Source: Xanthocytophaga flava
GTDB lineage: Bacteria > Bacteroidota > Bacteroidia > Cytophagales > 172606-1
Length of the DNA: 64,000 bases
NCBI GenBank assembly: GCA_030068525.1
Contig: JASJOS010000002.1
Coordinates: forward strand, 310,001 to 374,000
Reading direction: 5' to 3'
A program made the position numbers and the translations under genes. The notes beneath the pieces are model-generated. The model was given only the letters and a program-made list of their open reading frames with translations, did no database searches and was not told where the DNA came from. Position 1 is the first letter of the stretch, and every line of letters begins with the position of its first letter. Below are positions 4,635-44,322 of this stretch, one piece after another.

Positions 4635-7025
4635 ATGAGCATCCCTTCAGATATAAATCCCTTAAATACTTCAGAGAAAAAGCCTATTGAGAAAACAAAG
4701 CCATTACTTACTGTTTCATCAGAGGTTGTAACCTCACTGACAAGCCAGACAGAGACATTATTTGGTTTCGGAAGCTGGCAATGGATAGTAGAAACAGAGC
4801 AGATGGTTTGGTCTGACGGCCTGATGCATCTATTCGGATATGGACCAGAAACATTTGGCTCTAATTATAAAGATCTCTCATTTTTTACAGAACATTTGCA
4901 CCCTCTGGATAAGGAAAGAGCAATTAGTTACTTGGTGGAAGTAAAACAATTATCTGCCTGGATACCGTTAGAGGTCAGAATTCTAACTTTTGATGGAAAG
5001 CAGAAATGGATTTCTATCAAAGGACAAATTAGTCATATATATAGTACTCCAACATGGATTTGTCTGATAGAAGATATCACCTCACAGGTGACAAGTAGAC
5101 AACAGGAAGAAAAGGTAGTTAAAAGATTGCGTCAGCAAGAAAAGTTGTTTCAATGTGTAGAACATAATTTTCACTATGGAAGCCTGGAGTGGGATCTGGA
5201 TACAAATGAGGTAGTTTGGTCTGAGGGGATGATGTCTTTGATGGGTTATACACCAGAAACATTCGGTAATAATCCTTGTACACCTGATTTGTATTTATCT
5301 CATTTGCCAGCAGAGGATGTTCAGAAAACGACGGCAATGATAGACCATTATAAAACTACTCAAAACTTCATTCCTTTTGAGCAACGGGTCATAACCAGAG
5401 ATGGAAAAGAAAAAATTCTGGCAGGAGAATGGAGCATTAGCTCTGAAGAAAGAAAAGTAATATGTCTGCTACATGACATTACTCAGGAAAAGCAGAAAGA
5501 TATACAAATTGAGCAACAAGCCTGGGCACTGGAAAATATCTTTCGGAATACTCCCACCAGTATGTGTGTGCTGAAGGTAGTATATGATGAAGAAAAGCAG
5601 ATATCCGATTTAGTATATGTGTATGTCAGTCAAACTTTACAGGAGCAAACCAGACTTGCTGAAAGTGAATTGATAGGAAAAAGCATGTTGCAGTTATTTC
5701 CTGAGGTCAAGAATTCACACTTCTGGCTGGCTTATCAGCGGGTGCTTATAACAAAGGAATCTGAACGTTTTGAAGATTTCTATGAATTTGACGGCTATCA
5801 AAACTGGCTGGAAGGACAGGTTGCTTATTTGGACGACCATCATTTGTTGTCATCTTTTACGATAATCAATGATTTGAAGCAGATCCAGCAAGCGTTGGAG
5901 CATCAATCTGATTTGTTTGAAAGTGTAATTAATAATTCGCCAGTTTGTATCGTTTTATATAGAGCCATCCGAGATGCCTCTGGACAGATCATAGACTTTG
6001 TTCATGAATTATCAAATCCTGCCAACAGCTTGATAACTGGAAAAACAGAGGAAGAATTAATAGGAAAGTCATGGTTGACTCACTATCCGGAAAATAGGGT
6101 AAATGGCTTTTTTGATCTGTTTGTTTCTGTTGTAGAAACAGGCAGAACTGAACGAAAAACTTTTTTGTATGATGCACATGGCATAAAAGGTTGGTTTGAT
6201 GGAAATATTGTTAAACAGGGAGATGGTATACTGTTCACATACCAAGACATAACAGCTCTAACACAGCAGCAGCAACAAATCGAACAAACTAATCTGGAAT
6301 TGACACGGTCAAATACTGAACTGGAAAACTTTGCCTATGTAGCTTCTCATGATTTACAGGAACCATTACGAAAGGTTAAATCGTTTAGTAGCCTCTTAGT
6401 AAAGGAATACAGTACATTATTGGAAGGAAATGGCCAACTGTATATACAGCGTATGCAAATGGCTGTTGAACGCATGCAGACGCTGATCAATGATTTACTT
6501 GAATATTCCAGAGTTGGAAGATTGGAAGAGGGATACCAGCAAGTGAATCTGAATGAATTGATTACAAAAGTATGGATGCCTCTGAAGGAGGAAAAAGAGA
6601 ATACTGGAAAGCTGATAGAGTTTACTATAGATGAACTGCCAGAAATTCATTCTATCCCTTCTCAGATAAATCAGTTATTTGCTAACCTGTTAGGAAATGC
6701 CGTAAAATTTTCGAAGCCGGATGAACCGCTGACTATTCAAATTAGAAGGATGCCACTGACAGAGGAAGATAGAGGCAATCTACGGTTTGTCGAACAAACA
6801 GAGTATATCAAAATTGTTGTAGAAGATAATGGTATTGGGTTCGAACCTGAACACAAAGAGAGGATATTTGGTCTTTTTCAACGATTGCATGGCCGGAGTG
6901 AGTACGAAGGTTCAGGCATTGGACTGGCTATCTGCAAAAGGATTGTAGAAAATCACAAAGGATTTATGTATGCAGACAGTGAACCTGGAAAAGGGGCACA
7001 ATTTATTGTATTACTTCCGGCTTGA
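4635..7025 (+). CDS. Cytoplasmic multi-PAS sensor histidine kinase
   Basis: A 796-aa protein with no signal peptide or membrane helix, so probably cytoplasmic. Four PAS-type sensor modules span roughly residues 45-150, 170-285, 290-415 and 420-545; the first two are similar to each other (both carry a W-x-E/D...VWS-x-G-x-M segment followed by a YxPETFG element). A HisKA domain follows with the phosphoacceptor at His572 (ASHDLQEPLRKV), then a HATPase_c domain with NLLGNAVKFS, VEDNGIGF, FGLFQRLH and GSGIGLAICKRI. The kinase is of the phytochrome-like HWE-less HisKA type that often acts with an unlinked single-domain response regulator. No response regulator is adjacent. The ligand is unknown. 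Confidence 0.9.
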   Translation: MSIPSDINPLNTSEKKPIEKTKPLLTVSSEVVTSLTSQTETLFGFGSWQWIVETEQMVWSDGLMHLFGYGPETFGSNYKDLSFFTEHLHPLDKERAISYLVEVKQLSAWIPLEVRILTFDGKQKWISIKGQISHIYSTPTWICLIEDITSQVTSRQQEEKVVKRLRQQEKLFQCVEHNFHYGSLEWDLDTNEVVWSEGMMSLMGYTPETFGNNPCTPDLYLSHLPAEDVQKTTAMIDHYKTTQNFIPFEQRVITRDGKEKILAGEWSISSEERKVICLLHDITQEKQKDIQIEQQAWALENIFRNTPTSMCVLKVVYDEEKQISDLVYVYVSQTLQEQTRLAESELIGKSMLQLFPEVKNSHFWLAYQRVLITKESERFEDFYEFDGYQNWLEGQVAYLDDHHLLSSFTIINDLKQIQQALEHQSDLFESVINNSPVCIVLYRAIRDASGQIIDFVHELSNPANSLITGKTEEELIGKSWLTHYPENRVNGFFDLFVSVVETGRTERKTFLYDAHGIKGWFDGNIVKQGDGILFTYQDITALTQQQQQIEQTNLELTRSNTELENFAYVASHDLQEPLRKVKSFSSLLVKEYSTLLEGNGQLYIQRMQMAVERMQTLINDLLEYSRVGRLEEGYQQVNLNELITKVWMPLKEEKENTGKLIEFTIDELPEIHSIPSQINQLFANLLGNAVKFSKPDEPLTIQIRRMPLTEEDRGNLRFVEQTEYIKIVVEDNGIGFEPEHKERIFGLFQRLHGRSEYEGSGIGLAICKRIVENHKGFMYADSEPGKGAQFIVLLPA

Positions 7026-20118: not shown

Positions 20119-20150
20119 TTTGGAAATATAAAATCCAGATGTAATATTTG
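20119..20150 (+). promoter_or_regulatory. Candidate Bacteroidota-type promoter of the sulfatase locus
   Basis: TTTG at 20119-20122 is followed after 20 nt by AATATTTG at 20143-20150, one mismatch from the fixed positions of the TAnnTTTG -7 element. This gives a start site near 20157 and a leader RNA of roughly 380 nt. The match is imperfect, so this is an inference. Confidence 0.35.
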
Positions 20151-20192
20151 TCTATAGAATTACTAGACAAATCAATTCCCACCAAATTGATT
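20146..20192 (+). promoter_or_regulatory. Two overlapping inverted repeats at the putative transcription start
   Basis: ATTTGTCTA (20146-20154) and TAGACAAAT (20164-20172) are perfect 9-bp arms; AATCAATT (20170-20177) and AATTGATT (20185-20192) are perfect 8-bp arms that share two bases with the first repeat. They overlap the -7 element, so they could be an operator or mutually exclusive RNA hairpins at the 5' end. Confidence 0.5.
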
Positions 20193-20252
20193 TTATCAGA
20201 GTAGGTTCCCAAACCAGCCAATAATTAATTGGATGATAAAATTTTAATGTAA

Positions 20253-20348
20253 ATGGTTATGAAAAAGGATTCACTTCACACGCAATTCTTATCCGGGAGT
20301 TTGATAGCATTTTTCCAAATGCCTTGTTGTTGTTGTACCTGCTTGTAA
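20253..20348 (+). CDS. Poly-cysteine leader peptide of the sulfatase locus
   Basis: An ATG at 20253 (or the in-frame ATG at 20259) opens a 31- or 29-codon ORF that ends MPCCCCTCL-stop. Four consecutive TGT codons (20325-20336), one ACC and one TGC (20340-20342) place five cysteines in the last seven residues. Just before them GCATTT/AAATGC (20307-20322) can form a small hairpin. The ORF lies 191 nt upstream of the first gene of a sulfur-ester locus, in a structured leader. Poly-cysteine leader ORFs are known in mycobacteria as cysteine-responsive attenuators; by analogy, ribosomes would stall on the Cys codons when charged tRNA-Cys is scarce and raise expression downstream. The ORF is seen directly; the control role is inference. 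Confidence 0.7.
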   Translation: MVMKKDSLHTQFLSGSLIAFFQMPCCCCTCL

Positions 20349-20430
20349 TCTAATCAAAAGCATTATTCTTTTCCTGAGCATATAGTTTTGCCTTCTTCGT
20401 CTGGCCCTGTGTCAGAAAAGTTACCTGTTC

Positions 20431-20515
20431 CCATATACCGCTTATATGGCTAGAGGAAGCACTTTGTCTTCTAAATCGAGTTTTGGTGGAATTCTTTAGA
20501 AGATAGGTGCTTTCC
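20431..20515 (+). promoter_or_regulatory. Structured leader RNA between poly-Cys ORF and first gene
   Basis: Two stems are visible: CCATATA/TATATGG at 20431-20449, and a long hairpin whose stems are AGCAC/GTGCT (20458-20462, 20507-20511) and TCTTCTAAA/TTTAGAAGA (20467-20475, 20495-20503). The long hairpin ends 28 nt before the ATG at 20540. No T-run follows, so it is not a plain intrinsic terminator; translational control or Rho-dependent attenuation is possible. Confidence 0.5.
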
Positions 20516-20539
20516 ATAGCCGCCAACTGATACAAAATT

Positions 20540-21472
20540 ATGAAATCCTCTAAAGTTTTCTCTATCATTTTTGTCCTGGTTTTTTTAGGACAAATCGTCA
20601 TCGCGCAGGACGCCGCTAAAAATAAAGTTGTGATCACAGGAGTTCGTTTTGCTTATCCGTTAGTTGAAAAATGGATAAAGCAATACCAGCAGACTAATCC
20701 CAATTCACAAATTACAATAGAGGCGAGAACAACTACAGATCCTTCCCAATATGATGTATTAATTGAGGCATATGAACCGGAAGCTTCTATAAAAGAAAGT
20801 CGGGAATACGTTTATATTGCACGCTATGCATTACTGCCCTTTGCGAATGCGAGTTCTGCTTTTGCAAAAACATATTCAGACAAAGGCCTAACCACTGAAT
20901 TAATCAAACAGTTTTACTTTAATGATATTTATGCAGACAAGAAGAATGAGAAAAAGGTAGAGATACCTTATACAATCTATACTCGTCTGCAAAAAGCAGG
21001 AGCTCCTGTTACGTTTGCCCGCTACTTTGGGTTTGAACAAGCAAACATCAAAGGTAAAGCCATCGCTGGTGCAGATGAACATCTGGTGAAGGCTTTATTA
21101 AAAGACTCAACAGGGGTTTCTTATAGTACGCCAGGTTTAATTTTCAATCTTCAGACCCGCAAACCAATTGATGGCTTAACTGTATTGCCAGTAGATATCG
21201 ATGGTAACAAACGTGTGAGTGCTGATGAGAAATTCTATGACAATCTGGATATTGTGTTACAAAAACTGGAAGCAGCTGAATTAAAAAATGTTCCGATTGA
21301 GTATATCCACCTGTCTGTCCTGAAAAACAATACAAATCCTGAAGCTGTAAAATTCCTGAAATGGGTGTTTGAGCATGGACAGGATAACCTACATGAGTTT
21401 GGGTTTCTAAAACCAGATGCCAAACGTTTTCAGCAGGAAAAAGATCACCTTCAACAACTAGGTCTCAACTAA
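20540..21472 (+). CDS. Exported periplasmic binding protein (PstS/sulfate-binding-like)
   Basis: A 310-aa protein with a signal peptide cleaved near IVIAQ. The mature part has a type-2 periplasmic binding-protein look, close to PstS-like or extracellular solute-binding domains (VVITGVRFAYPLVEKWIKQYQQ, then a C-terminal EAVKFLKWVFEHGQDNL element typical of PstS-like proteins). There is no lipobox, so it should be soluble in the periplasm. No ABC permease or ATPase is in the locus. It is the first structural gene behind the poly-Cys leader and lies 35 nt before susC. An oxyanion ligand such as sulfate is plausible by context but not shown. Confidence 0.7.
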   Translation: MKSSKVFSIIFVLVFLGQIVIAQDAAKNKVVITGVRFAYPLVEKWIKQYQQTNPNSQITIEARTTTDPSQYDVLIEAYEPEASIKESREYVYIARYALLPFANASSAFAKTYSDKGLTTELIKQFYFNDIYADKKNEKKVEIPYTIYTRLQKAGAPVTFARYFGFEQANIKGKAIAGADEHLVKALLKDSTGVSYSTPGLIFNLQTRKPIDGLTVLPVDIDGNKRVSADEKFYDNLDIVLQKLEAAELKNVPIEYIHLSVLKNNTNPEAVKFLKWVFEHGQDNLHEFGFLKPDAKRFQQEKDHLQQLGLN

Positions 21473-21507: not shown

Positions 21508-24500
21508 ATGAAAAAACATCTACTAGTCGTAGCATTCCTTATGCTAGCGATAGGGACCGCTTTTGCCCAAAATATAAAAGGAGTCATCAAAGATGAAGCT
21601 GGTCAGCCATTACCTGGTGCCAGTGTTGTAATTAAAGGAACTAAAGAATATGTGGTTTCAACGGCTGATGGTCAGTTCAATATAAAAGCGCAAAAAGAAT
21701 TTCCTTTTACACTAACGGTAACATTAGTTGGTTTTAAAACGCAGGATGTTGAGGTGTATGAACTTTCTGAGGAAGCACTCGAAGTGAATTTGAAAACAGA
21801 CAATATACTGGATGAGGTAGTTGTCATTGGCTATGGTGAGCAAAAACGAAAAGACATTACAGGTTCTATTTCGTCTGTGCCTACAGAAATTAAAACACAG
21901 CCTGTAGTTTCTGTAGAGCGACTTTTACAAGGATCTGTAGCTGGGGCCATAGTAACGCAGACATCAGGACAACCAGGTGGTGGGGTAAGTGTGCAAATTC
22001 GGGGAAACAACTCTATCACAGCAGGAAGTGATCCATTGTATGTAATTGATGGTTTTCCAATCAATAATGATTACTCTCTTACCGACGCAGGCGTTACGGA
22101 TGGTTCAAAAATTAACCCACTTTCTTCTATCAATACAACCGATATTGAATCTATTGATGTATTGAAAGATGCTTCTGCAACAGCTATTTATGGTTCGCGT
22201 GGTGCCAATGGAGTTGTGATTATTACCACAAAAACAGGCTCGAAAGATAAATCATCTATTAATTATGATGGATATTATGGTGTACAAGAAGTCATCCGGA
22301 CTATTCCTTTATTAAATGCAGGACAATGGTGGTCATTGCGGAAGGATGCAGCTGCTAATTCTGGAAAAACAGTTTCATTACCTTCAACAATTGGGTATTC
22401 GTTAGATACTACGGGTGATGGAACAGATTGGCAGGCAGCAGCTTTTCGGAAAGCTATCATTCAGAGCCATAGCTTATCTATTTTATCTGGCTCAGAGAAA
22501 ACTCGTCTGGCAGTTTCTGGTAATTACCTAAAGCAGGATGGAATTTTGCAGAATACAGATTTTACACGATTATCAGCAAGAATCAATCTGGATCATGAAT
22601 ATAGCAAGAAATTTAGAATCTTTGGTAGCATTACAGCTTCTAATACAAAGGCTCAGGTGGCACCTGCTGCTATTGTGGGTAATCTGCTGTTAACTCCGCC
22701 TTCCTTACCTGTTTATAAAGATGATGGAACATTTGTAATAAATAGTCCATTTGAGTCTGCATTACAGAACCCAATTAACTCACTATATAATCAGTTGAAT
22801 GAAACACGTACCAACCGGTTTTTAGGGAGCTTATCTGGTGAGTATACTATTCTCGAAGGACTAAAAGCGAAAGTACTGGTTGGGGCTGATGTAGTTGATA
22901 ATAAACAAAACAGATATCTGCCTAGCTCCACCGCAGAAGGCCAGAGTTTACAGGGATTGGCTACAGTGGGAACAATGTTTACTTCAAGCTGGCTGAACGA
23001 GAACACATTAAGCTATGATAAACAAATAGGCACCCGTAACAGAGTTAGTGCTATCGTAGGTTTTACCGCACAGCAATCTGATTCCAAAGGCGCTGTAGCT
23101 GAAGCTGCAGGATTTGCAACGGATGCATTTGAGTACAACAACCTGGGAACTGGAATTACTAACCGTACACCTCGTTCGTCTGCTAATAAATGGTCACTGG
23201 CTTCTTATCTGGGTCGTATCAATTATGTATTGGATGAAAAATATCTGGCTACATTTACCTTACGTGCTGATGGATCATCTCGTTTTGGTGAAGGAAACAA
23301 ATGGGGATATTTCCCTTCTGCTGCTTTGGGATGGAATGTGAGTAGTGAAAGCTTTATGCGTCAGTTCCCAAAAGTTAGTCTTTTAAAAGTAAGAGGTAGC
23401 GCAGGGATAACAGGTAATCAAAGTATTCCGCCTTACCAGTCACTTTCTCAACTTAGCTATTTCCGGTATAGCTTCTCAAATACTACTGTTTCCGGTTATG
23501 CTCCTGCAACCGTTCCGAATCCAAACTTAGGATGGGAAAAGACATTTCAGGTGGACTTTGGGATTGATTTAGGTTTGTTCAATAACCGGATCAATATCAC
23601 TGCTGACTATTACTACAAAAAGACAACAGATTTATTATTGAGTCGTACGGTTCCGGGTACTTCTGGACTCTCAGATTTCTATAATGGACAGGCTTCCACT
23701 ATTTATCAGAATATTGGTGCTGTATCTAACAAAGGCATTGAGTTGTATATCAATTCGCAGAACCTGACAGGAGATCTGAAATGGAATACAATATTTGTAT
23801 ACTCCAAAAATAGCAACAAAATTCTAAGTCTGGGTGATGGCGTTAATCAGATTATCCCAGTGATTTCTTCACCTTCTATTGCCAAAGTGGGATATCCTTT
23901 AGGTTCATTCATTGTATATAAGACAGACGGGATTATTCAAGAAGGAGATGTTGCCCTTACTCCACAGGCAAATAAAAGTCCAGGTGGTCAGAAATACAAA
24001 GATATCAATGGGGATGGGGTGATTACACAAGCAGGGGATCGTATTGTAATTGCAAATCAGCCTGGTTTTGTAGCAGGCCTTACTAATACATTTTCTTACA
24101 AAGGATTTGATCTGGCTGTATTCTTTCAGGCTTCTATTGGGGGTAAGCTTTACAATGCCAACCGTGCCAATCTGGAGTTGGGTACTGGTTATACAAACGG
24201 TTCAACTGTATTGTTGGATCGCTGGACACCAACAAATACCAATACCGATGTGAAAGCTGCCTATCAGGACCCTGCGATTACTATCTCTGACCGGTTTATT
24301 GAAGATGCTACCTATTATCGTCTGAAAAACATTTCATTTGGATACACTCTGCCTAAGACTCTATTGTCTAAAGCAAAGATTCAGAATCTTAGAATTTATG
24401 TGTCTGCACAGAATGCCTTTACATGGACTAATTATACAGGTTATGATCCGGAAGTTAGTTTGAATGGACAAAGTCTGATCAACAAGGGTGTAGATTCTGG

Positions 24501-24552
24501 AGTATATCCTAATAACAAATCCTATCAGATCGGGCTATCCTTATCACTTTGA
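21508..24552 (+). CDS. SusC/RagA-type TonB-dependent outer-membrane transporter
   Basis: A 1014-aa SusC-family protein: signal peptide to about residue 20 (ends AFAQ), a carboxypeptidase-regulatory-like domain (about 21-105; IKGVIKDEAGQPLPGASVVI), the SusC signature EVVVIGYGEQKRKDITGSIS at the plug entry, plug elements IRGNNSITAGSDPLYVIDG and ATAIYGSRGANGVVIITTK, and a 22-strand-type barrel ending in YQIGLSLSL. It is shorter-normal for the family and forms a lidded import complex with the SusD gene 46 nt downstream. Energy comes from TonB-ExbBD encoded elsewhere. The surrounding sulfatases suggest a sulfated substrate. Confidence 0.93.
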   Translation: MKKHLLVVAFLMLAIGTAFAQNIKGVIKDEAGQPLPGASVVIKGTKEYVVSTADGQFNIKAQKEFPFTLTVTLVGFKTQDVEVYELSEEALEVNLKTDNILDEVVVIGYGEQKRKDITGSISSVPTEIKTQPVVSVERLLQGSVAGAIVTQTSGQPGGGVSVQIRGNNSITAGSDPLYVIDGFPINNDYSLTDAGVTDGSKINPLSSINTTDIESIDVLKDASATAIYGSRGANGVVIITTKTGSKDKSSINYDGYYGVQEVIRTIPLLNAGQWWSLRKDAAANSGKTVSLPSTIGYSLDTTGDGTDWQAAAFRKAIIQSHSLSILSGSEKTRLAVSGNYLKQDGILQNTDFTRLSARINLDHEYSKKFRIFGSITASNTKAQVAPAAIVGNLLLTPPSLPVYKDDGTFVINSPFESALQNPINSLYNQLNETRTNRFLGSLSGEYTILEGLKAKVLVGADVVDNKQNRYLPSSTAEGQSLQGLATVGTMFTSSWLNENTLSYDKQIGTRNRVSAIVGFTAQQSDSKGAVAEAAGFATDAFEYNNLGTGITNRTPRSSANKWSLASYLGRINYVLDEKYLATFTLRADGSSRFGEGNKWGYFPSAALGWNVSSESFMRQFPKVSLLKVRGSAGITGNQSIPPYQSLSQLSYFRYSFSNTTVSGYAPATVPNPNLGWEKTFQVDFGIDLGLFNNRINITADYYYKKTTDLLLSRTVPGTSGLSDFYNGQASTIYQNIGAVSNKGIELYINSQNLTGDLKWNTIFVYSKNSNKILSLGDGVNQIIPVISSPSIAKVGYPLGSFIVYKTDGIIQEGDVALTPQANKSPGGQKYKDINGDGVITQAGDRIVIANQPGFVAGLTNTFSYKGFDLAVFFQASIGGKLYNANRANLELGTGYTNGSTVLLDRWTPTNTNTDVKAAYQDPAITISDRFIEDATYYRLKNISFGYTLPKTLLSKAKIQNLRIYVSAQNAFTWTNYTGYDPEVSLNGQSLINKGVDSGVYPNNKSYQIGLSLSL

Positions 24553-24598: not shown

Positions 24599-26167
24599 AT
24601 GAGACTCATTATATATTCTACCCTTACACTATTATTATTGATTACAGGAGCCTGCAAGGATTTTTTGTCAGAAGATCCTGAATCCTTGATTTCTGAGGAT
24701 CAATATTACAAAACCCAGGCAGATGCGATTAATGGGATTAATGCTGTATACTTCCTTCTTAACTCAGGTGGAAGTAGCATTCAGACACCCTATAATACAT
24801 TATTTAACACTGGAATGAATATGGCAGGAGATGATGAAGATCCAGGTCCGGGTGCTACCAATCCGGATGTTCGTTCGCTGGCGGTATTGGCTCATTCATC
24901 TACTAACCTGAGGATTTACGAAATCTGGCAACAACATTATGCTGCTATAAAGAAAGCAAACGTTGCACTGGATAAAATTCCTTCAATCGATTTTGATGCT
25001 GCGCTGAAGAGCCGTTTGTTGGGTGAAGCTAAATTTTTGAGAGCTTTGTATTACTTCAATCTGGTTCGGTTATATGGAGATGTACCATTGATTACTGAAT
25101 ACCAAAAGTATGTAAATGCTGCTGATTATGCTATTGCCAAGTCACCATCTACAGAAGTATATGCACAGATTGAAAAGGATTTGCAGGAAGCAGCTGAAGT
25201 GCTACCAGCGTCTTATACAGCTCCGGATGTAGGAAGAGCCACACAAGGAGCTGCCAAAGCGTTGCTGGCTAAAGTATATCTCACTAAAGCATCACTACCA
25301 CTTAATATAACAGCACATTATGCAGATGCTGTAGCCAAAGCTGAAGAGGTGTTATCTGCTACAGATGGAGGAACAGGAAATTATGGCTATGATCTGTTTG
25401 CAAACTATGCAGATGTCTTTTTGCCTGCTACTAAAAATGGAAAAGAACATATCTTTTCTGCTCAGTTTAAGTCTAATGCTCAGGGACAAGGAAACAACGA
25501 AAATCCACGTACTATTCTGAGCGGGGTGCCAGGACTGTCGGGCAACTATGCCCATATGGTTCGTTATTATACCAATGGCGATGATAAGTATTTCAGTATT
25601 TATAAGTTGTATAAACCCAATGATAAACGCAGAAATGCAACGTTTGTAACCTACTTTACAAGCCCTTCCAATGGAAGAAAATATGCATTACCTCTTGCAA
25701 ATACAGCGGTTCCTAATGATTCAACCCCATTTTATCATAAGATGTGGGATCCTAATTCAACATCTGTAACCAGTGAGTCTGCAGCTAATGTTGCTATCAT
25801 TCGTTATGCAGAGCTTTTGCTGATCCATGCGGAAGCAGAGAATGAAGCTAATGGTCCTACTGCAAAAGCTTACAAATCTCTGAACAGAGTCCGGAACAGG
25901 GCTGGTCTTGCTAATTTGACAGAAGGCTTAACTAAGGATCAGTTTCGTGATTCTTTGTATCTGGATCGCCGATTGGAAGTAGTGTTTGAATATCAGCGCT
26001 GGTTCGATCTGATTCGTCAGAAAGATGGAGCTGGAAACAGCACTTTTGTATCCAACTTACACAAAGTAGGAAAGACAAATGCAACAGATAAACATCGGCT
26101 TTATCCAATTCCGCAATCAGAAATTGATAACAATGCGTTGCTGGAACAAAATGAACTGTGGAAATAG
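24599..26167 (+). CDS. SusD/RagB-type surface lipoprotein
   Basis: A 522-aa lipoprotein with lipobox TGAC at residues 16-19, followed by DFLSEDPESLISEDQYY, the usual SusD opening. SusD elements include the helical FLRALYYFNLVRLYGDVPLIT stretch, GAAKALLAKVYLTKAS, YAELLLIHAEAENE and the C-terminal LYPIPQSEIDNN. It caps the SusC barrel and captures substrate at the cell surface. It is followed by a 12-bp hairpin that may lower expression of the genes beyond. Confidence 0.93.
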   Translation: MRLIIYSTLTLLLLITGACKDFLSEDPESLISEDQYYKTQADAINGINAVYFLLNSGGSSIQTPYNTLFNTGMNMAGDDEDPGPGATNPDVRSLAVLAHSSTNLRIYEIWQQHYAAIKKANVALDKIPSIDFDAALKSRLLGEAKFLRALYYFNLVRLYGDVPLITEYQKYVNAADYAIAKSPSTEVYAQIEKDLQEAAEVLPASYTAPDVGRATQGAAKALLAKVYLTKASLPLNITAHYADAVAKAEEVLSATDGGTGNYGYDLFANYADVFLPATKNGKEHIFSAQFKSNAQGQGNNENPRTILSGVPGLSGNYAHMVRYYTNGDDKYFSIYKLYKPNDKRRNATFVTYFTSPSNGRKYALPLANTAVPNDSTPFYHKMWDPNSTSVTSESAANVAIIRYAELLLIHAEAENEANGPTAKAYKSLNRVRNRAGLANLTEGLTKDQFRDSLYLDRRLEVVFEYQRWFDLIRQKDGAGNSTFVSNLHKVGKTNATDKHRLYPIPQSEIDNNALLEQNELWK

Positions 26168-26359: not shown

Positions 26360-28690
26360 ATGATCACTTCTCTACCTGCTTCCAGATATGTTATAGTACT
26401 TTTATTTGGTATTATAACAGCATCTTTTAGTACCAATACCTTTGCCCAATATGATCCTGTACAGCCTTATAAAGGTAAAACAGGGAGAAACCTTGTTGAG
26501 ACACAACAATGGTGGCCTGACAAAAAGAAAGCACCCGAAGGTGCTCCTAATGTGGTTTGGATACTTCTGGATGATGTGGGTTTTGGAGCTGTCAGCACAT
26601 TTGGTGGATTGATCCGCACGCCAAACCTGGATTCGCTGGCAAATAATGGCCTTCGATATACTAACTTTCACACTACAGCCATTTGTTCCCCTACTCGTGC
26701 AGCCCTGTTAACAGGGCGTAACTCCCACTCTGTACATATGGGGCTATTCCCTAATACTGCTATTGGAACTCCAGGGTATGATGGGTATATGCCTTTTGAA
26801 AAAGCTACCATTGCTGAAATTTTACGTGAAAACGGCTACAATACCTATGCAGTGGGCAAATGGCATCTTACACCAATATCAGATGCAACAGTGGCAGGAC
26901 CATTTAACCGCTGGCCAACAGGAAGAGGCTTTGATCATTATTACGGATTTTTAGGTGGCTCGACTGATCAGTGGCATCCTGTCTTATGGGAAGATACTCG
27001 CAAAGTAGAGCCTGAAACAGATGGCAAACATTTTACAACCCGTATAGCTGACAAAGCCATTCAATATATTGCAGAACAAAAATCTGTTGAAGCCGACAAA
27101 CCATTTTTCCTCTACTTCGCTCCAGGTGCCGGGCATGCACCACATCATGTTGCCAAAGAATGGAGGGACCAGTATAAAGGTAAATTTGATCAGGGATGGG
27201 ATAAATATCGTGAAGAGGTTCTTGCCCGACAGATCAAACTGGGAGTGGTACCAAAAGGTACACAGCTACCACCTCGTAATGCAAGTATTAAAGACTGGAA
27301 TGCACTTTCTGCTGATGAGAAGAAATTATATGCCCGCTTTATGGAAGTATATGCCGGATTTTTATCCCACACAGATTATGAAATTGGTCGTGTTGTTCAG
27401 TATTTGAAAGAAATTGGACAGCTGGACAATACATTGGTCATTGTATCTATAGGAGATAATGGAGCCAGCAAGGAAGGGACTTTTGTGGGGGTTGTGAATA
27501 CAAACGACCCTTCACAAACAGAAGAACAACGGTTACAGGACAATATTAAAAATATAGACCTGATTGGTACAGAAGCTTCACGACCTAACTACCCACTGGG
27601 TTGGGCACAGGCAACCAATACTCCTTTCAAACATTGGAAGCAGGATGCTAACTCAGAAGGTGGTACACGTAATCCTCTTATTGTTTTCTATCCGAAAGGC
27701 ATTAAAGAAAAAGGAGGGTTCCGGGATCAGTATACGCATCTGATTGATATTCTACCTACTACGATAGAACTGACAGGTACTCAAATTCCTACTATTATTA
27801 ACGGCTATCGTCAGGAACCTATTGAAGGGACAAGCCTTGCCTATAGTATCAACAATGTACAAGCTCCTTCCCGACATTTGGTGCAACACTATGAGATTAT
27901 GGGTTCACGTGCTATTTACAGAGATGGCTGGAAAGCAGGCACCCTTCATAAGAAAGGAGAAGACTTTGCTAATGATAAATGGGAGCTGTATCACATTAGT
28001 GAAGATTATAATGAACTGAATAACCTGGCTGAAAAGAATCCTGAAAAGCTAAAAGAACTACAAGATCTTTTTGATAGCGAAGCTGCCAAATACAATATCT
28101 ATCCATTGAAAGATGGTACAGAAAAACAACTAGACTATTCTGCTTTGTATGTAGGAAACGGTGCGTCAAAGGTGATCTATTACCCAGAAGCTTCCCAGTT
28201 GTTTGGTGTTACCAGTCCAATAGCCCCAAACAAATCCTACAGTATTACAGCAGATGCCGAGATATCGAAAAATACACAGGGTGTATTGTTTGCATTAGGA
28301 GGAAGGTTTGGTGGGGTAAGTCTCTTTGTGAAACAAGGCAAGGTTCAGGTAGCCAACAATACAGGAACTCAACTGACTCATTTGGTTTCCAGCAAACCAT
28401 TGCCAACAGGTAAGGTAACACTAAAGTATGTACTTATTTACAAAGAGGCAAAAGATCCTAATGACCCTGCCGGAACACAGCAACTCTACATCAATGATGT
28501 GAAAGTAGCAGAATCTCCTATTGCAAAAGCGCAGGCTGGTATCCGAAACTATGATGAGATCAATGTTGGCAAAGATCTGATTACCCCTGTCTCCAATCAA
28601 TATACAGTACCCTATGCATTTACCGGAAAGCTAACAAAAGTGATTGTTGAAAGTGGTATTACTACAGCTGCATCATTGGGAAACAAATAA
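26360..28690 (+). CDS. Exported arylsulfatase (AtsA-like) with C-terminal beta-sandwich
   Basis: A 776-aa family S1 sulfatase. A signal peptide ends near TFAQ, then metal-binding NVVWILLDDVGFG opens the alkaline-phosphatase fold. The formylglycine motif is CSPTR at Cys109 (CSPTRAALLTGR), and the second signature is AVGKWHLTP. The distal metal site is SIGDNGASKEG. Residues after about 570 form a beta-sandwich with a LamG-like look, as in long AtsA-type enzymes. It would hydrolyse sulfate monoesters in the periplasm after Cys-to-formylglycine conversion. The next gene is a close paralog with the same layout, so the pair arose by tandem duplication. Confidence 0.92.
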   Translation: MITSLPASRYVIVLLFGIITASFSTNTFAQYDPVQPYKGKTGRNLVETQQWWPDKKKAPEGAPNVVWILLDDVGFGAVSTFGGLIRTPNLDSLANNGLRYTNFHTTAICSPTRAALLTGRNSHSVHMGLFPNTAIGTPGYDGYMPFEKATIAEILRENGYNTYAVGKWHLTPISDATVAGPFNRWPTGRGFDHYYGFLGGSTDQWHPVLWEDTRKVEPETDGKHFTTRIADKAIQYIAEQKSVEADKPFFLYFAPGAGHAPHHVAKEWRDQYKGKFDQGWDKYREEVLARQIKLGVVPKGTQLPPRNASIKDWNALSADEKKLYARFMEVYAGFLSHTDYEIGRVVQYLKEIGQLDNTLVIVSIGDNGASKEGTFVGVVNTNDPSQTEEQRLQDNIKNIDLIGTEASRPNYPLGWAQATNTPFKHWKQDANSEGGTRNPLIVFYPKGIKEKGGFRDQYTHLIDILPTTIELTGTQIPTIINGYRQEPIEGTSLAYSINNVQAPSRHLVQHYEIMGSRAIYRDGWKAGTLHKKGEDFANDKWELYHISEDYNELNNLAEKNPEKLKELQDLFDSEAAKYNIYPLKDGTEKQLDYSALYVGNGASKVIYYPEASQLFGVTSPIAPNKSYSITADAEISKNTQGVLFALGGRFGGVSLFVKQGKVQVANNTGTQLTHLVSSKPLPTGKVTLKYVLIYKEAKDPNDPAGTQQLYINDVKVAESPIAKAQAGIRNYDEINVGKDLITPVSNQYTVPYAFTGKLTKVIVESGITTAASLGNK

Positions 28691-28730: not shown

Positions 28731-31028
28731 ATGAGAGATTTGTTGCAGATAGTAAAGAGATCACTTGTACTTACCTATTTAATGGGAATATATAGCTTGT
28801 CTTTAGTGGCTCAGCATGATCCTGTACAACCTTATCAGGGGAAAATCGGAAAGACATTACGTGAAACCACTCTTTGGGTGCCTGAAAAAGAAAAGGCACC
28901 CAAAGATGCACCCAATGTAATCTGGATATTATTGGACGATGTAGGGTTTGGGGCATCATCTGCTTTTGGTGGATTAATTGAAACACCTACGATTGACGCA
29001 TTAGCCAATAATGGATTACGTTATACAAATTTTCATACTACAGGATTATGTACCCCTACACGTGCAGCCTTATTGACTGGGCGTAATGCACATAGTGTAG
29101 GTATGGGACACCATGCAGATTTCAGTATTGGAGCACCTGGTTATTCTGGTGAAATACCTTTTGAAGCAGGAACAGTAGCTGAAATATTCCGGGAGAATGG
29201 CTATAACACGTATGCATTAGGCAAATGGCATTCCACACATCCTGATATTGCTACGGCTGCAGGTCCATACAACAGATGGCCAACAGGAAGGGGATTTGAT
29301 CATTTTTATGGATTTGTAGGTGGGTCAACTGATCAATGGCATCCTCAGCTTGTGGAAGAGAATAACCCAATTAATATTGAACCCAACACCCACCACCTTA
29401 ATGAATTGCTAACTAATAAGGCCATTTCATATATCGCCAATCAAAAGTCTGCTGATGCAGAAAAACCATTCTTTCTCTATTTTGCTCCAGGTGCAACACA
29501 TGCACCACATCAGGTTGCCAAAGAATGGAGTGATCGGTATAGAGGCAAATTTGATCAGGGATGGGATAGTTATCGTGAAGCTGTATTTAAACGTCAGCAG
29601 GCATTGGGATTATTACCCAAGAACGCAGTTCTTCCTCCACGTCAGACGGGGGTAGAAGCATGGGAAACCCTGACTGCGGATGATAAGAAAGTATTTGCTC
29701 GTTTTATGGAAGTGTATGCTGGATTTTTATCCTATACTGATTATGAGATTGGGCGTATTGTGTCTTATCTCAAACAAAACGACCTGTTGAACAACACCTT
29801 AATCGTGTTAATGATTGGAGACAATGGTGGCAGCAAGGAAGGAACTTATACAGGAACAATCGGCTTTGCAGACAAATCCCAGGGCGAAGATATTAGTTTT
29901 CTGCTAAGCCAGTACGATAAGATTGGGACTGAATATACGGCTCCTAATTATCCTTTGGGATGGTCTCAGGCAACCAATACACCGTTTCGTTACTGGAAAA
30001 GTGATGTGAATGCAGAAGGGGCTAGTCATAATCCGTTAATTCTGTATTATCCCAATCGTATAAAAGAAAAAGGGCTTCGTACGCAGTATAGCCACGTAGT
30101 AGATATACTTCCTACTACAATAGAACTGACAGGCATAAAAATTCCTGATTTTATTAACGGTTACCAGCAAAGGCCTATTCAGGGTATTAGTCTGGTTTAT
30201 TCTATTGCCGACGCCAAAGCTGCCACCAGACATACCATTCAGTATTACGAACTGCACGGAGGGCGATCTATCTACAAGGATGGCTGGAAAGCTTCTGTGT
30301 ATCATCCCCGCAATATGTTTGGTGAAGCAAAGGTCACAGACATAAACTTTAATCCTCCTGATTTCAGTCAGGATCGTTGGGAACTCTATAATCTGAATGA
30401 AGACTGGACAGAAACCAAAGATCTGGCAGCCAGTAATCCACAGAAGCTGGAAGAACTGAAAGCTTTGTTTGACAGGGAGGCAGAAGTAAATAAAGTATAT
30501 CCTCTCCGAAATTTTAAGGAAGGTGTTGTTGCCCCAGAGGTTCATGCCAAAACTGTTATCTATCAGGGTACTACCACAAAAACACGGGTACCTGTTGGGA
30601 AAGGTAGTGTCAGCATCATATCTGCAATTGAACTGCCAAAACAAAATGCAGAAGGAGTCATTTTTGCCAATGGAGGGCTGCAGGGAGGAACAAGTTTATA
30701 CATTCTGAATGGAAAGCTCCACTACACACTTACTGATGGGATCAAAGAAGTTACACTGACTTCTACAACGCCATTGGTAGCTGGCAAAAATACAATCAGG
30801 ATAGACTTTACAAATACGTCTGCTGTTGTATTGTCTGTGAATAATCAGCATGCTGCCGAACAATCAATAGCTTCTAAAACGAAATACCTCGCTTCTATAG
30901 CTTCTGAAGGTATTAGTGTAGGAAAAGACCTCAATGCACCTGTCAGCAAAGTGTATCCGGGACCTTATCCTTTTACCGGAATAGTATCAAAGATTGTCAT
31001 CGAGCAAAAAGTAGAACCTACAAACTAA
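28731..31028 (+). CDS. Exported arylsulfatase, tandem paralog of the preceding gene
   Basis: From the ATG at 28731 the product is 765 aa with a normal signal peptide (LTYLMGIYSLSLVAQ); a longer frame begins inside the upstream gene and would spoil it. The formylglycine motif is CTPTR at Cys107, the metal-binding start is NVIWILLDDVGFGASS, and GKWHSTHPD replaces the usual GKWHL. The distal site is MIGDNGGSKEG. The C-terminal 200 residues are a beta-sandwich like that of the paralog. It lies 40 nt downstream. The Ser-for-Leu next to the active-site GKWH suggests a changed substrate pocket (inference). Confidence 0.92.
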   Translation: MRDLLQIVKRSLVLTYLMGIYSLSLVAQHDPVQPYQGKIGKTLRETTLWVPEKEKAPKDAPNVIWILLDDVGFGASSAFGGLIETPTIDALANNGLRYTNFHTTGLCTPTRAALLTGRNAHSVGMGHHADFSIGAPGYSGEIPFEAGTVAEIFRENGYNTYALGKWHSTHPDIATAAGPYNRWPTGRGFDHFYGFVGGSTDQWHPQLVEENNPINIEPNTHHLNELLTNKAISYIANQKSADAEKPFFLYFAPGATHAPHQVAKEWSDRYRGKFDQGWDSYREAVFKRQQALGLLPKNAVLPPRQTGVEAWETLTADDKKVFARFMEVYAGFLSYTDYEIGRIVSYLKQNDLLNNTLIVLMIGDNGGSKEGTYTGTIGFADKSQGEDISFLLSQYDKIGTEYTAPNYPLGWSQATNTPFRYWKSDVNAEGASHNPLILYYPNRIKEKGLRTQYSHVVDILPTTIELTGIKIPDFINGYQQRPIQGISLVYSIADAKAATRHTIQYYELHGGRSIYKDGWKASVYHPRNMFGEAKVTDINFNPPDFSQDRWELYNLNEDWTETKDLAASNPQKLEELKALFDREAEVNKVYPLRNFKEGVVAPEVHAKTVIYQGTTTKTRVPVGKGSVSIISAIELPKQNAEGVIFANGGLQGGTSLYILNGKLHYTLTDGIKEVTLTSTTPLVAGKNTIRIDFTNTSAVVLSVNNQHAAEQSIASKTKYLASIASEGISVGKDLNAPVSKVYPGPYPFTGIVSKIVIEQKVEPTN

Positions 31029-32972: not shown

Positions 32973-34610
32973 ATGAAACATCTCTATACCTATATTACAT
33001 TCAGTATACTCCTTGTATTGTATGTATCCGCCTATGGAACAGGAGTAAGTAAGCCTAAGCCCGCAAAACCCAATATTGTGTTGATTCTGGTTGACGATAT
33101 GGGGTTTTCAGATATTGGAGCCTATGGTTCGGAAATTCCTACCCCAAACCTGGATAAGCTGGCCAACAATGGAGTACGCTTTACACAGTTTTACAATACA
33201 TCCCGTTGCTGTCCAACACGTGCTGCATTGCAATCCGGAGTGTATCCGCACCAGGCAGGAGTAGGTAGCATGAATGGTAACCTGGGTACACCTGCTTATC
33301 AGGGATATTTGAATAAAAATATCATCACCATTGCCGAAGGATTAAAGACGCAAGGATATACAACTCTCATGTCTGGAAAATGGCACATAGGAAATACTCC
33401 AGAACAGTGGCCGGGAGCTCGCGGATATGATAAGTATTTTGCCTTGATAGGAGGAACCAGCCATCAATTTTATCCTCATCCCTACAAGCTGGCTGAACTA
33501 AATTTTTTTGTGAAGAATGGTCAGAAGCTGGAATCATATACTACAGATAAGAAACCAGACTCCTATTACCTGACAGATGAATTTACAGATCAGGCTTTGG
33601 GATTTTTGGACGAAACAAAAAATACCAACAAACCTTTTTTCCTTTTCACAGCTTACAATGCGCCTCACTTTCCTATACAGGCACGCAAGGAAGATATTGA
33701 AAAGTATAAAGGCAAATATATGCAGGGATGGGATGTAGTCCGCACAGAACGTTATAAACGTTTAGTGAATATGGGAGTTATTCGTCCGGAATGGAAATTG
33801 TCTCCCAGAGACACCCTGATTCCCGGATGGGACCAACTCCGCCAGACAGAAAAAGAAGCATGGGATCTGAAAATGGCTGTATATGCCGCTATGATAGATC
33901 GGCTAGACTATAACATTGGTCGTATTCTGACTAAATTAACTGAACTTGGAGTAGACAAGAATACCTATATATTCTTTCTTTCTGACAATGGTGCCAGTCA
34001 TGAATATGCTTTTTCAGCAAAGTCACAGACTCCGGAGGTGGCTTCGCTGGTAAAACCTCTGACAGCAGATAATCCGCAATCATATGTTTCCTATGAATAT
34101 AACTGGGCGAATGTAAGCAATACACCTTTCCGTTCTTTCAAACACTGGGAGCATGAAGGGGGTATCAGTACACCTTTTATTGCCTATGCTCCAGGAAAAA
34201 TTCAGGCGGGAGGATTGGTACCTGCACCAGCTCATGTGATAGATATTCAGCCTACCATCTTTGATCTGGCTGGAGTAAAGTATCCGCAGACTTATAAAGG
34301 TAACACGCTGATCAGTCAGGAAGGAATATCTTTCAAATCAGCCCTGGATGGCAAGGAGTGGACAGGAAATGATATCATATTCTGGGAGCATCAAGGCAAT
34401 CGGGCCGTGCGTCAGGGTGACTGGAAGATTGTTTCGTTTTACCCTGAGAATAAGTGGGAGCTATACAATATAAAGGAAGACAGAACAGAATTACACAATC
34501 TTGCATCTTCCAATCCCGCTAAACTACAGGAGCTGATAAACTTATACAATGCATGGGCAAAGCGTGCAGGAGTAGTAGAATGGGAAACGCTGGTGAAGAA
34601 GACGCCATAA
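32973..34610 (+). CDS. Exported arylsulfatase with a CCPTR formylglycine motif
   Basis: A 545-aa S1 sulfatase with a signal peptide (SILLVLYVSAYG). NIVLILVDDMGFSDIGAYG supplies metal ligands, and the formylglycine site is Cys79 in C-C-P-T-R, with a second cysteine in the X position. TLMSGKWHIGN, FFLSDNGASHEY and the C-terminal RAVRQGDWKIVSF complete the fold. It is AtsA-like and closely resembles the sulfatase at 50833. The 5' sequence AAACAAACCATAATG is nearly repeated before the next gene, suggesting a shared type of translation start. Confidence 0.92.
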   Translation: MKHLYTYITFSILLVLYVSAYGTGVSKPKPAKPNIVLILVDDMGFSDIGAYGSEIPTPNLDKLANNGVRFTQFYNTSRCCPTRAALQSGVYPHQAGVGSMNGNLGTPAYQGYLNKNIITIAEGLKTQGYTTLMSGKWHIGNTPEQWPGARGYDKYFALIGGTSHQFYPHPYKLAELNFFVKNGQKLESYTTDKKPDSYYLTDEFTDQALGFLDETKNTNKPFFLFTAYNAPHFPIQARKEDIEKYKGKYMQGWDVVRTERYKRLVNMGVIRPEWKLSPRDTLIPGWDQLRQTEKEAWDLKMAVYAAMIDRLDYNIGRILTKLTELGVDKNTYIFFLSDNGASHEYAFSAKSQTPEVASLVKPLTADNPQSYVSYEYNWANVSNTPFRSFKHWEHEGGISTPFIAYAPGKIQAGGLVPAPAHVIDIQPTIFDLAGVKYPQTYKGNTLISQEGISFKSALDGKEWTGNDIIFWEHQGNRAVRQGDWKIVSFYPENKWELYNIKEDRTELHNLASSNPAKLQELINLYNAWAKRAGVVEWETLVKKTP

Positions 34611-36286: not shown

Positions 36287-37701
36287 ATGAAAACATCCTT
36301 TTTTCGAAAGTTTTGTTTCCTGGCATTCATTGTCTTTGCTGGGAACTTATCACTGACATATGCTCAGTCTAAACCTAAATACAATGTTTTGTTTATAGCA
36401 GTTGATGATCTGAATAATGAGTTGGGCTGCTATGGAAGTAAAGAAGTAAAATCACCTAACATCGACCGACTGGCAAAACAAGGAGTCCGATTTGATCGTG
36501 CCTATACACAGTTTCCCCTTTGTAGTCCCAGCCGATCTTCTCTACTGACAGGGCAGAGACCAGACGTGACAGGAATTTATGAACTGCAAACACACTTTCG
36601 CAAAAATCTTCCGGATGTAGTAACACTGCCACAGCTTTTTATGAATAACCATTATTATAGTGCTCGTGTAGGAAAGATATACCATTATGGCGTTCCTGGT
36701 CAAATAGGTACCAATGGATTGGATGACTCCTTGTCCTGGCACCACCGCGTCAATCCGAAAGGTCGGGATAAAGTAGCAGAATCGACAATCAAAAATCTTA
36801 CGCCTGACCGAAACCTGGGAAGTGCTTTGTCGTGGCGGCAGATGAAGGTTCAGATGAGGAACAGACAGATGGCCTGATTGCTACAGAAGCGATTAAACTG
36901 CTGGAAGAAAAGAAAAACGCACCTTTCTTTCTGGCAGTAGGATTCTTCAGACCTCATACACCTTATGTAGCACCTAAGAAATATTTTGATCTGTACTCTC
37001 CTGAGAAAGTTACCTTGGCTAAAGAAAAGGAAAATGATTTAGAGGACATACCTGAGCCGGCACTTTTTACAAAACCTTCACACTGGGGCCTGAATGAAGC
37101 AGACAGACGTGAAGCCCAACGGGCTTATTATGCCGTTATTTCCTTTATGGATGCACAAGTAGGTAAAGTATTGGATGCATTGGATCGGTTGAAACTCAGA
37201 GATAATACAATTGTAGTTCTCTGGAGTGATCATGGATACAATTTGGGGCAGCATGGACAGTGGATGAAACAGAGTTTGTTTGAAAATTCGGCACGAGTGC
37301 CTTTGATTATCTCTGTTCCTGGTGGTGTAAAAGGAAAAGCTTCTCTCCGCACAGTAGAGCTAATAGATCTGTATCCTACACTGGCACAACTCTGTGAATT
37401 GACTCCTCCGGCAGACTTACAGGGTAAAAGTTTAGTGCCGTTGTTGAAAAATCCCAACGCTACCTGGGACAAACCTGCCTATACACAGGTGAGACGTGGA
37501 GACATAATGGGGCGCAGTGTGCGTACAGAACGATATCGATATACGGAATGGGATGAAGGCAGACAAGGAGTCGAATTATATGACCATCAGACTGATCCGG
37601 ATGAATTTAATAATCTGGCAAAACAAAGTTCCCATGCAGCTACAGTAAAAGAACTGGCTGAGTTACTTCACAAAGGTTACGCTCTCAAAAACAAATCCTG
37701 A
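36287..37701 (+). pseudogene. Frameshifted iduronate-2-sulfatase-like sulfatase
   Basis: Two overlapping frames together encode one sulfatase of 471 aa, close to the 480-aa paralog downstream. Frame 1 (36287 on) has a signal peptide, [17 protein letters not shown], Cys79 in CSPSR and GKIYHYG, and stays family-like up to GSALSW. Frame 2 resumes with [19 protein letters not shown] and continues through [25 protein letters not shown] and the C-terminus. The switch falls at TCGTGGCGGCA (36830-36840): restoring one G to give TGGGCG would join the frames exactly. There is no slippery heptamer, so this is a one-base deletion or a sequencing error rather than programmed frameshifting. If real, the enzyme is inactive. 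Confidence 0.85.
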
Positions 37702-43943: not shown

Positions 43944-44322
43944 AAGAATGGATTGATAAGCGTCTGTCTGTAATTGTTCTTTCTTGTGATTTTTATTTCC
44001 AATTAACTCAAATAAAATTCTTTTGGGATGATTGGAAATAAAAATCATACTCTTACATTTGTCTATGGATTTACTAGAGTTTTATTGCTATCAAACAAAA
44101 GTTTTAGTAGCCAGGCATTTATACTGCAGATTATTATGTATCTGTCTCTCTCTGCCATACTATTTCATGTATCACAAACATACAATATAGTTTTTCTAAT
44201 AGTATTATTTATCAAACTGGTTCAGCTTATAGAAGTCAAGTTTTGGCAGTAACAGATAGACCTCTATTCAAGGTGCAACAAACAGAAAAGCTATTAAACT
44301 GATCCATACCACTTACATCCTG
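43944..44322. other. Spacer with a 17-bp inverted repeat
   Basis: 379 nt between two sulfatase genes, the longest gap in the locus. It holds the repeat at 43987-44047. A 74-codon hydrophobic frame (44028-44252) was not called because it begins inside the repeat arm and has no recognisable features. Confidence 0.5.
43987..44047. repeat. Long inverted repeat in the sulfatase locus
   Basis: TGATTTTTATTTCCAAT and ATTGGAAATAAAAATCA are perfect 17-bp arms around a 27-nt loop that can itself fold. It starts 44 nt past the upstream stop. No T-run follows on the plus strand, so it may be a processing or stability hairpin, or the remains of a small mobile element. Confidence 0.55.

Follow-up and report, generated by a model that had tools for sequence, protein, structure and literature searches.

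A cysteine-codon-rich leader ORF ahead of a SusCD/sulfatase operon in Xanthocytophaga flava: a probable cysteine-responsive attenuator that follows a SAM-I riboswitch in many relatives

A short open reading frame (ORF) that ends in a run of cysteine codons, just ahead of an operon for organic sulfur uptake, raises the question of whether it encodes a leader peptide through which the supply of cysteine would set the expression of the operon. The ORF lies in the window, which is the whole stretch of 64,000 nucleotides analyzed here (Xanthocytophaga flava, contig JASJOS010000002.1), and the features discussed below are listed in Table 1. It opens with an ATG at 20253, its Cys codons stand at 20325-20336 and 20340-20342, five of its last seven codons are Cys, and 191 nt (20349-20539) separate its stop from the 310-aa gene at 20540. 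Both the codon count and the distance had been given in a preliminary description of this DNA, and both agree with the coordinates and the sequence. A second ATG in the same frame, at 20259 (MKKDS...), is just as likely to be the start, by analogy with the leaders of relatives, which begin with MKT....

Table 1 Features of the window around the leader ORF and in the operon that follows it.
Feature	Position	Strand	Basis or remark
Operator-like palindrome TTTGTCTATAGAATTACTAGA, promoter-proximal	20147..20167	+	Perfect match of TTTGTCTATNNANTTANTAGA
Hairpin H1, loop CCCACCA	20169..20193 (arms 20169-20177 / 20185-20193)	+	9 bp, perfect; MFE fold
Stem P0	20190..20242 (arms 20190-20198 / 20234-20242)	+	9 bp, perfect; alignment
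Leader ORF MVMKKDSLHTQFLSGSLIAFFQMPCCCCTCL	20253..20348	+	Sequence reading; stop 20346-20348
Cys codons TGTTGTTGTTGT-ACC-TGC	20325..20342	+	Sister species (L005) has TGTTGCTGTTGT-ACC-TGT, two synonymous changes
Hairpin H3, apical TTTGGTGG	20447..20526	+	MFE -36.6 kcal/mol, z -6.3
TTTGGTGG in H3	20482..20489	+	8-bp complement of CCACCAAA at 20179-20186 (H1 loop)
First gene, 310 aa, possible solute-binding protein, weakly PstS-like	20540..21472	+	Sub-cutoff NCBIfam match
SusC-type TonB-dependent receptor	21508..24552	+	Pfam
SusD-type lipoprotein	24599..26167	+	Pfam
Sulfatase	26360..28690	+	PF00884
Sulfatase	28731..31028	+	PF00884; scanned from 28731, listed ORF start 28644
Sulfatase	32973..34610	+	PF00884

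A leader of this kind is expected to be a short ORF upstream of an operon, to have Cys codons clustered close to its stop, and to precede genes concerned with sulfur or cysteine supply, and all of these features were found here. The SusC, SusD and sulfatase genes that the preliminary description had read downstream were recovered by Pfam. The first gene gave no match in the Pfam search, only a weak PstS-like match below the cut-off in NCBIfam, and three weak matches of no evident meaning among solved structures. About ten sulfatase-like genes are clustered at 26360-52473, four of them confirmed by Pfam and the others recognized by eye; the cluster also includes a multiheme-type protein at 48336 and another TonB-type receptor at 45784, both likewise recognized by eye. 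One sulfatase-like gene (by eye, 36287-37701) is seemingly split into overlapping frames (36287-36877 and 36832-37701), which appears to be a frameshift or a sequencing error.

Runs of this kind were searched for in the 9.5-Mb genome of the organism itself, where the pattern TGYTGYTGYTGY occurs 100 times and its reversed form 18 times. Eighty-nine distinct TGYTGYTGYTGY frames were inspected, leaving out the window's own site, the one at 6263-6277 of the window, which is antisense within a 796-aa ORF, and the L002 place, antisense within a 240-aa ORF. Only 4 of the 89 frames were free of overlap with long ORFs, and one of these (L185) proved to be a short ORF that opens with ATG and carries the run C-terminally; three more C-terminal Cys runs (L178, L218, and L221) lie across long ORFs. 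Exact TGYTGYTGYTGYACNTGY was found twice elsewhere in this genome, both times overlapped by long ORFs. The intergenic L185 ORF (G000:C16:79548) ends with MASGIFTCTGPQLVCCCCHH and is followed after approximately 230 nt by an RND efflux adaptor gene; it may be either a leader or a product of chance.

Homologues of the first gene were found in 20 of 194 genomes of the order, and a scan of the genome contigs gave 76 loci, from which L073 and L088 were dropped because their upstream sequence was too short. In the remaining 74 loci, we counted as a leader any ATG-started ORF within 450 nt upstream that had at least 3 Cys in 6 of its last 12 codons. Such an ORF was present on the sense strand at 48 of the 74 loci, versus 1 of 74 on the antisense strand and 38 of 3700 dinucleotide shuffles (1.0%). 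At stricter thresholds, 27 sense loci versus no antisense locus had at least 4 Cys, and 11 versus 0 had 5. Dyadobacter accounts for 27 of the 74 loci, 22 of them with a leader, and 26 of the remaining 47 loci have one; this second set includes Ohtaekwangia, Parachryseolinea, Chryseolinea, Chryseosolibacter, and Pseudochryseolinea, as well as Chitinophaga, Solitalea, Bacteroides luti, Paludibacter, and uncultured Bacteroidales. The other 26 of the 74 homologous loci had no leader by this definition, and three of these, all Dyadobacter, carry a two-Cys tail recognized by eye. The preliminary description had held that homologous loci without a Cys-rich ORF would speak against a leader, and that a chance origin was very unlikely; the first did not turn out to be the general case, and the second is borne out by the counts. 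Although short ORFs with a TGY run do arise by chance, as L185 may illustrate, the conservation of the ORF against the antisense, shuffle and codon-class controls leaves a fortuitous Cys run with next to no probability.

The signal was found to reside in the Cys reading frame. With the same definition, TGY codons gave 48 of the 74 loci, the other two frames of the repeat gave 1 (GYT) and 3 (YTG), and ten further control codon classes gave between 0 and 6. These counts bear on the idea that the (TGY)n tract is an RNA or DNA repeat whose reading frame is incidental, an idea to which the GU-rich composition of the tract and the complementary GCAACA that follows it in six Chryseolinea-type metY leaders lend some colour. 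However, besides the near absence of the other two frames, many tails are interrupted by other codons and yet keep their Cys (MCMCCCCACCC, CWCPCCC), which makes an incidental frame very improbable. The comparison thus suggests a signal at the level of codons, and we reject a signal at the level of the repeat.

The remainder of the peptide changes readily. Between the window and the sister species, nine codons of the leader differ: five nonsynonymous and two synonymous changes fall outside the Cys codons, and the two within them are both synonymous. When 68 related pairs, which are not independent of one another, were pooled, codons with Cys on either side showed 73 synonymous and 68 nonsynonymous changes, versus 218 and 608 for the other codons. 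Conservation of the Cys codons across homologous loci, with drift in the rest of the peptide, is a further mark of this kind of leader; synonymous drift with retention of the Cys run had been proposed beforehand as a check, and it is what the alignments display, the body of the peptide turning over around a retained run. The same data weigh on the possibility that the ORF codes for a small Cys-rich protein with a function of its own in metal or thiol binding, rather than for a regulatory leader. An ATG-to-stop ORF does recur in many species, and several Bacteroidales versions have an N-terminal IYY motif in common, but the body differs between families and drifts between sister species, the Cys residues cluster at the C-terminus, and, in the riboswitch sets described below, the ORF accompanies sulfur genes and is absent before metH. 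A functional small protein is, in our estimate, highly improbable.

In relatives, the leader was often found behind a second regulatory element. In 6 of the 16 relatives given to Rfam, the SAM-I riboswitch (RF00162) was detected immediately ahead of the leader, as full matches above the gathering score, whereas the window gave no match to any Rfam family, SAM-I included, at or above the gathering score over its whole length, and none at E<=1 between 19700 and 20700. Likewise, no aptamer match was found in the Dyadobacter loci searched (L006 and L051), although the leader is present in them and in the window. The association was then counted from the side of the riboswitch. Six genomes, which contain 27 SAM-I switches, were not blindly chosen: four were those of loci with the tandem, one that of a locus (L033) almost identical to one of these, and one that of L035, which has no match at its binding-protein locus. 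In this set, all 21 switches located before genes other than metH are followed by a leader with C-terminal Cys, 19 with at least 3 Cys in 6 codons and two with 2, and the downstream genes are metY (6), binding protein (5), PhyH (4), sulfatase (3), and others (3). No Cys leader was found before metH (0 of 6).

A less biased sample consisted of 39 genomes drawn evenly from the order, of which 29 carry 64 switches, all of them used. A leader with at least 3 Cys follows 19 of the 64 switches, in 16 genomes. It was found at 13 of the 18 metY switches (11 of 15 assigned by the script pattern and 2 of 3 assigned by eye, namely L357, L376, and L386), with 2 Cys at two more, and at none of the 18 metH switches, one of which has 2 scattered Cys. 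In a sample of the class, comprising 42 further switches among the matches listed, the leader was present at 3 of 4 metY genes assigned by pattern, 0 of 9 metH genes, and 1 of 29 unassigned genes, several of them metY-like by eye; 50 order and class switches were fetched from among the matches listed. Finally, among the best-scoring 30 matches of a phylum sample, none of 21 metY switches had at least 3 Cys, and 2-Cys tails without the tandem were seen in 2 of 21, so that the tandem is limited to a clade. In all these counts, the scan took the best of all ATG-started ORFs within 175 nt behind the switch, and 2-Cys tails also arise this way without a tandem.

In relatives, this kind of leader stands before metY and before genes of PAPS reductase, cysteine desulfurase, sulfatase, TonB receptor, and PhyH dioxygenase, but it is absent before metH. 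A family search with representatives of the downstream genes returned OAH sulfhydrylase, cysteine desulfurase, PAPS reductase, PhyH, sulfatase, and TonB receptor, several scores falling below whole-protein cut-offs because the sequences searched were fragments. The genome of X. flava itself has five SAM-I switches, located before a cysteine desulfurase (leader ...GRMCCY), a YceI gene (...SECC), an unassigned region, metY, and one further gene; no Cys run was found behind the switch of its metY (L265). At the desulfurase locus (L267, G000:C7:160279-160382), the riboswitch is followed by the leader MLKTTYYPTCGRMCCY and then by the gene, and a near-identical leader occurs in the sister species (L388). 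In three metY leaders located after SAM-I switches (L359, L361, and L381), seven Cys codons stand in succession.

The two elements lie close together, the leader starting 7-11 nt after the aptamer in 14 of the 21 tandems of the six genomes and 7-14 nt after it in 15 of the 19 of the even sample. At such a distance, the P1 helix of the SAM-bound aptamer would be expected to hinder initiation on the leader. We propose, tentatively and at barely less than an even chance, that Cytophagales and near kin have a composite RNA device with two inputs, in which SAM would gate translation of the leader and the charging of tRNA-Cys would decide whether the ribosome stalls. This device would mark genes that import sulfur (metY, PAPS reductase, desulfurase, SusCD/sulfatases, and PhyH) and omit metH, which serves methyl transfer only; the window would represent a derived form that has lost the SAM input and kept the cysteine input. 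Alternatively, the leader and the SAM-I switch may both be real but independent of each other, their spacing reflecting mere compactness, and the leader may protect the mRNA or block Rho instead of switching hairpins. Such independence fits the leaders without an aptamer match in the window and in the two Dyadobacter loci, and no shared terminator/antiterminator was found in the binding-protein-type (SBP-type) and metY sets; in actinobacteria, moreover, there is a precedent for Cys leaders without terminators, for which Rho has been suggested in the portion of the source available (PMC1262725). The few nucleotides that separate the leader start from the 3' end of the aptamer in most tandems make independence less likely, yet not impossible, and we regard it as a real possibility some way below an even chance.

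Upstream of the leader, the operator-like palindrome points to a first layer of control. Perfect matches of its pattern occur at two places only in the genome, the leader site and positions 44058-44078 of the window, upstream of a sulfatase gene at 44323 (PF00884). Two copies have one mismatch: L229, on the same contig approximately 65 kb before the leader, precedes a sulfatase-like gene recognized by eye, and L228 lies inside a coding sequence. Given control counts of 3 and 6, against 5 and 7, for the operator pattern, weight can be attached to its best matches only. Ahead of the leader, the Dyadobacter loci shown and most Chryseolinea-type relatives (not L035 and L063) have a similar motif, and a similar element was also seen before some other tandems, including those of PhyH, and not before the metY genes examined. 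The distribution of these copies makes a sulfatase regulon a candidate.

Several RNA structures are predicted on either side of the leader. H1 and its loop are present in most Chryseolinea-type relatives (not L047), and P0 encloses the place that the SAM-I aptamer occupies in relatives, the aptamer itself being absent from the window. The hairpin between the leader and the first gene, H3, is common to the window and the Chryseolinea-type relatives: in nine sequences, it has 19 pairs, of which 7 are changed on both sides, and 92.3% of its cells are paired versus 32-47% in slid controls. Its covariation score is 0.320 versus 0.203 in shuffles, none of 500 shuffles reaching 0.320; these figures are flattered by the fact that the alignment also served to predict the structure. 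Alignment A2 excludes L005 and L033, which are near-identical. The apical loop of H3 is complementary to the loop of H1, and this relationship extends to other loci, CCACC being found upstream of GGTGG at 43 of the 74 loci versus 71 of 3700 shuffles. The CCACC box lies near the inferred transcript start and GGTGG in the H3 loop; in Dyadobacter, GGTGG is located inside the leader ORF and is conserved despite different encoded residues. However, GGTGG was not found in several tandems that have CCACC, so that this pairing is not the whole story. In the Chitinophaga locus L077, the CCACC/GGTGG complementarity reaches 13 bp, by eye.

How a stalled ribosome would be read out was examined next to these structures. 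Terminator-like hairpins with U-tracts followed the leader in 15 of 49 leader-gene intervals versus 40 of 196 shuffles, and in 6 of 22 of the metY set versus 47 of 220 shuffles, without clear enrichment in either, and on these counts intrinsic termination was set aside as a general read-out. The shuffles used for terminators and for CCACC/GGTGG were made with two-base blocks, which are cruder than the dinucleotide shuffles used for leader counts and Cys pairing. Pairing of the Cys codons with the RNA downstream of the leader did not in general exceed chance and was likewise set aside (mean z -0.26 for 49 SBP-type and -0.77 for 22 metY-type leaders). RCARCA complements were found in 2 of 49 SBP-type leaders versus 49 of 980 shuffles, and in 7 of 22 metY-type leaders versus 38 of 440; six of these seven are, by eye, Chryseolinea-type metY leaders. 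GCAACA is located downstream of the metY leader in 6 of 6 Chryseolinea-type genomes (L239, L243, L248, L252, L249, and L257); it is complementary to the Cys codons and may form a hairpin with them. Read-out through Rho, mRNA stability or translation is possible.

We conclude, with a probability of about 0.78, that the ORF at 20253-20348 encodes a cysteine-responsive leader peptide, that is, an attenuator. This reading draws on what can be seen in the sequence: the ORF itself, its conservation, its codon specificity, the tandem in relatives, the places of the operator, and the hairpin. We infer from them translation and stalling, the direction of the response, gating by SAM, and a role for H3. 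Transcription would start under an operator common to other sulfatase genes, and a ribosome would translate the leader at the head of the operon mRNA. When charged tRNA-Cys is scarce, the ribosome would stall on the Cys codons, expression of the binding-protein/SusCD/sulfatase operon would rise, and organic sulfur would be fetched; when cysteine is plentiful, the ribosome would complete the leader and depart, and expression would fall. Where a SAM-I aptamer immediately precedes the leader, as in many relatives, its P1 helix mostly lies 7-11 nt from the leader start, and bound SAM would impede translation of the leader, so that aptamer and leader together would signal a shortage of both SAM and cysteine.

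In actinobacteria, poly-Cys short ORFs, leaderless in mycobacteria, are reportedly cysteine-responsive attenuators, going by the title of Canestrari 2020 (cited in PMC13236596 and PMC9094748). The leader of X. flava is not of the leaderless type: a conserved promoter/operator precedes the ORF by approximately 100 nt and structured RNA separates the two, the start sites being inferred. In actinobacterial cys operons, the available part of Seliverstov 2005 (PMC1262725) describes short ORFs ahead of cysteine genes in which Cys codons cluster close to the stop, with no conserved terminator. The leaders described here resemble these in their short ORF, in the Cys run near the stop, and in a read-out that is not clear from terminators. 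They differ in phylum and in targets, which are SusCD, sulfatase, metY, PhyH, and cysteine desulfurase genes, and also in not being leaderless, in often standing directly after a SAM-I aptamer, and in the presence of the operator and H3.

Within the phylum, leader-peptide attenuation has been proposed for amino-acid operons of Flavobacterium psychrophilum (PMC9723704), and short ORFs within long 5' UTRs have been described in B. thetaiotaomicron (PMC7366714), but the available portions of these two sources name no cysteine leader, sulfur-gene target or SAM switch. In Rhodobacterales, the uORFC-8-2 motif upstream of cysS has conserved tandem Cys codons and is attributed to ribosome-mediated attenuation; as the accessible text presents it, it differs in having two Cys codons in a stem with an intrinsic terminator, in its cysteinyl-tRNA synthetase target, and in belonging to alphaproteobacteria (PMC8632094). 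For M. tuberculosis, the excerpts of PMC11260477 describe a single mRNA on which a B12 riboswitch and a translated uORF work jointly; there, however, the ligand is B12 and not SAM, the PPE2 uORF is coupled by stop/start overlap, and these excerpts describe no run of amino-acid codons. Among the literature matches listed, which include few subscription papers and were in part available as excerpts, neither a Cys leader nor a tandem of SAM switch and Cys leader in Bacteroidota was found, in line with the suggestion of the preliminary description that a poly-Cys leader on a SusCD operon of this phylum would be new. The kind of element is known; what is new in Bacteroidota, as far as these literature searches show, is the cysteine leader with its targets and with the tandem.

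Taken together, the conserved Cys leader on these organosulfur uptake genes most probably acts as a cysteine-responsive attenuator, and many relatives have it in tandem with the SAM-I riboswitch. Beyond the preliminary description, the analysis has brought to light the SAM-I switch upstream in many relatives, the sulfatase-associated operator, and the conserved hairpin between the leader and the gene. The presence of the leader before metY and its absence before metH make a sharp prediction, directly testable in culturable Dyadobacter or Chryseolinea. If the reading is true, a leader peptide that senses cysteine would govern the uptake of organic sulfur across the outer membrane in Bacteroidota and, together with the SAM switch, would allow these bacteria to discriminate, at the RNA level, a need for sulfur from a need for methyl groups.
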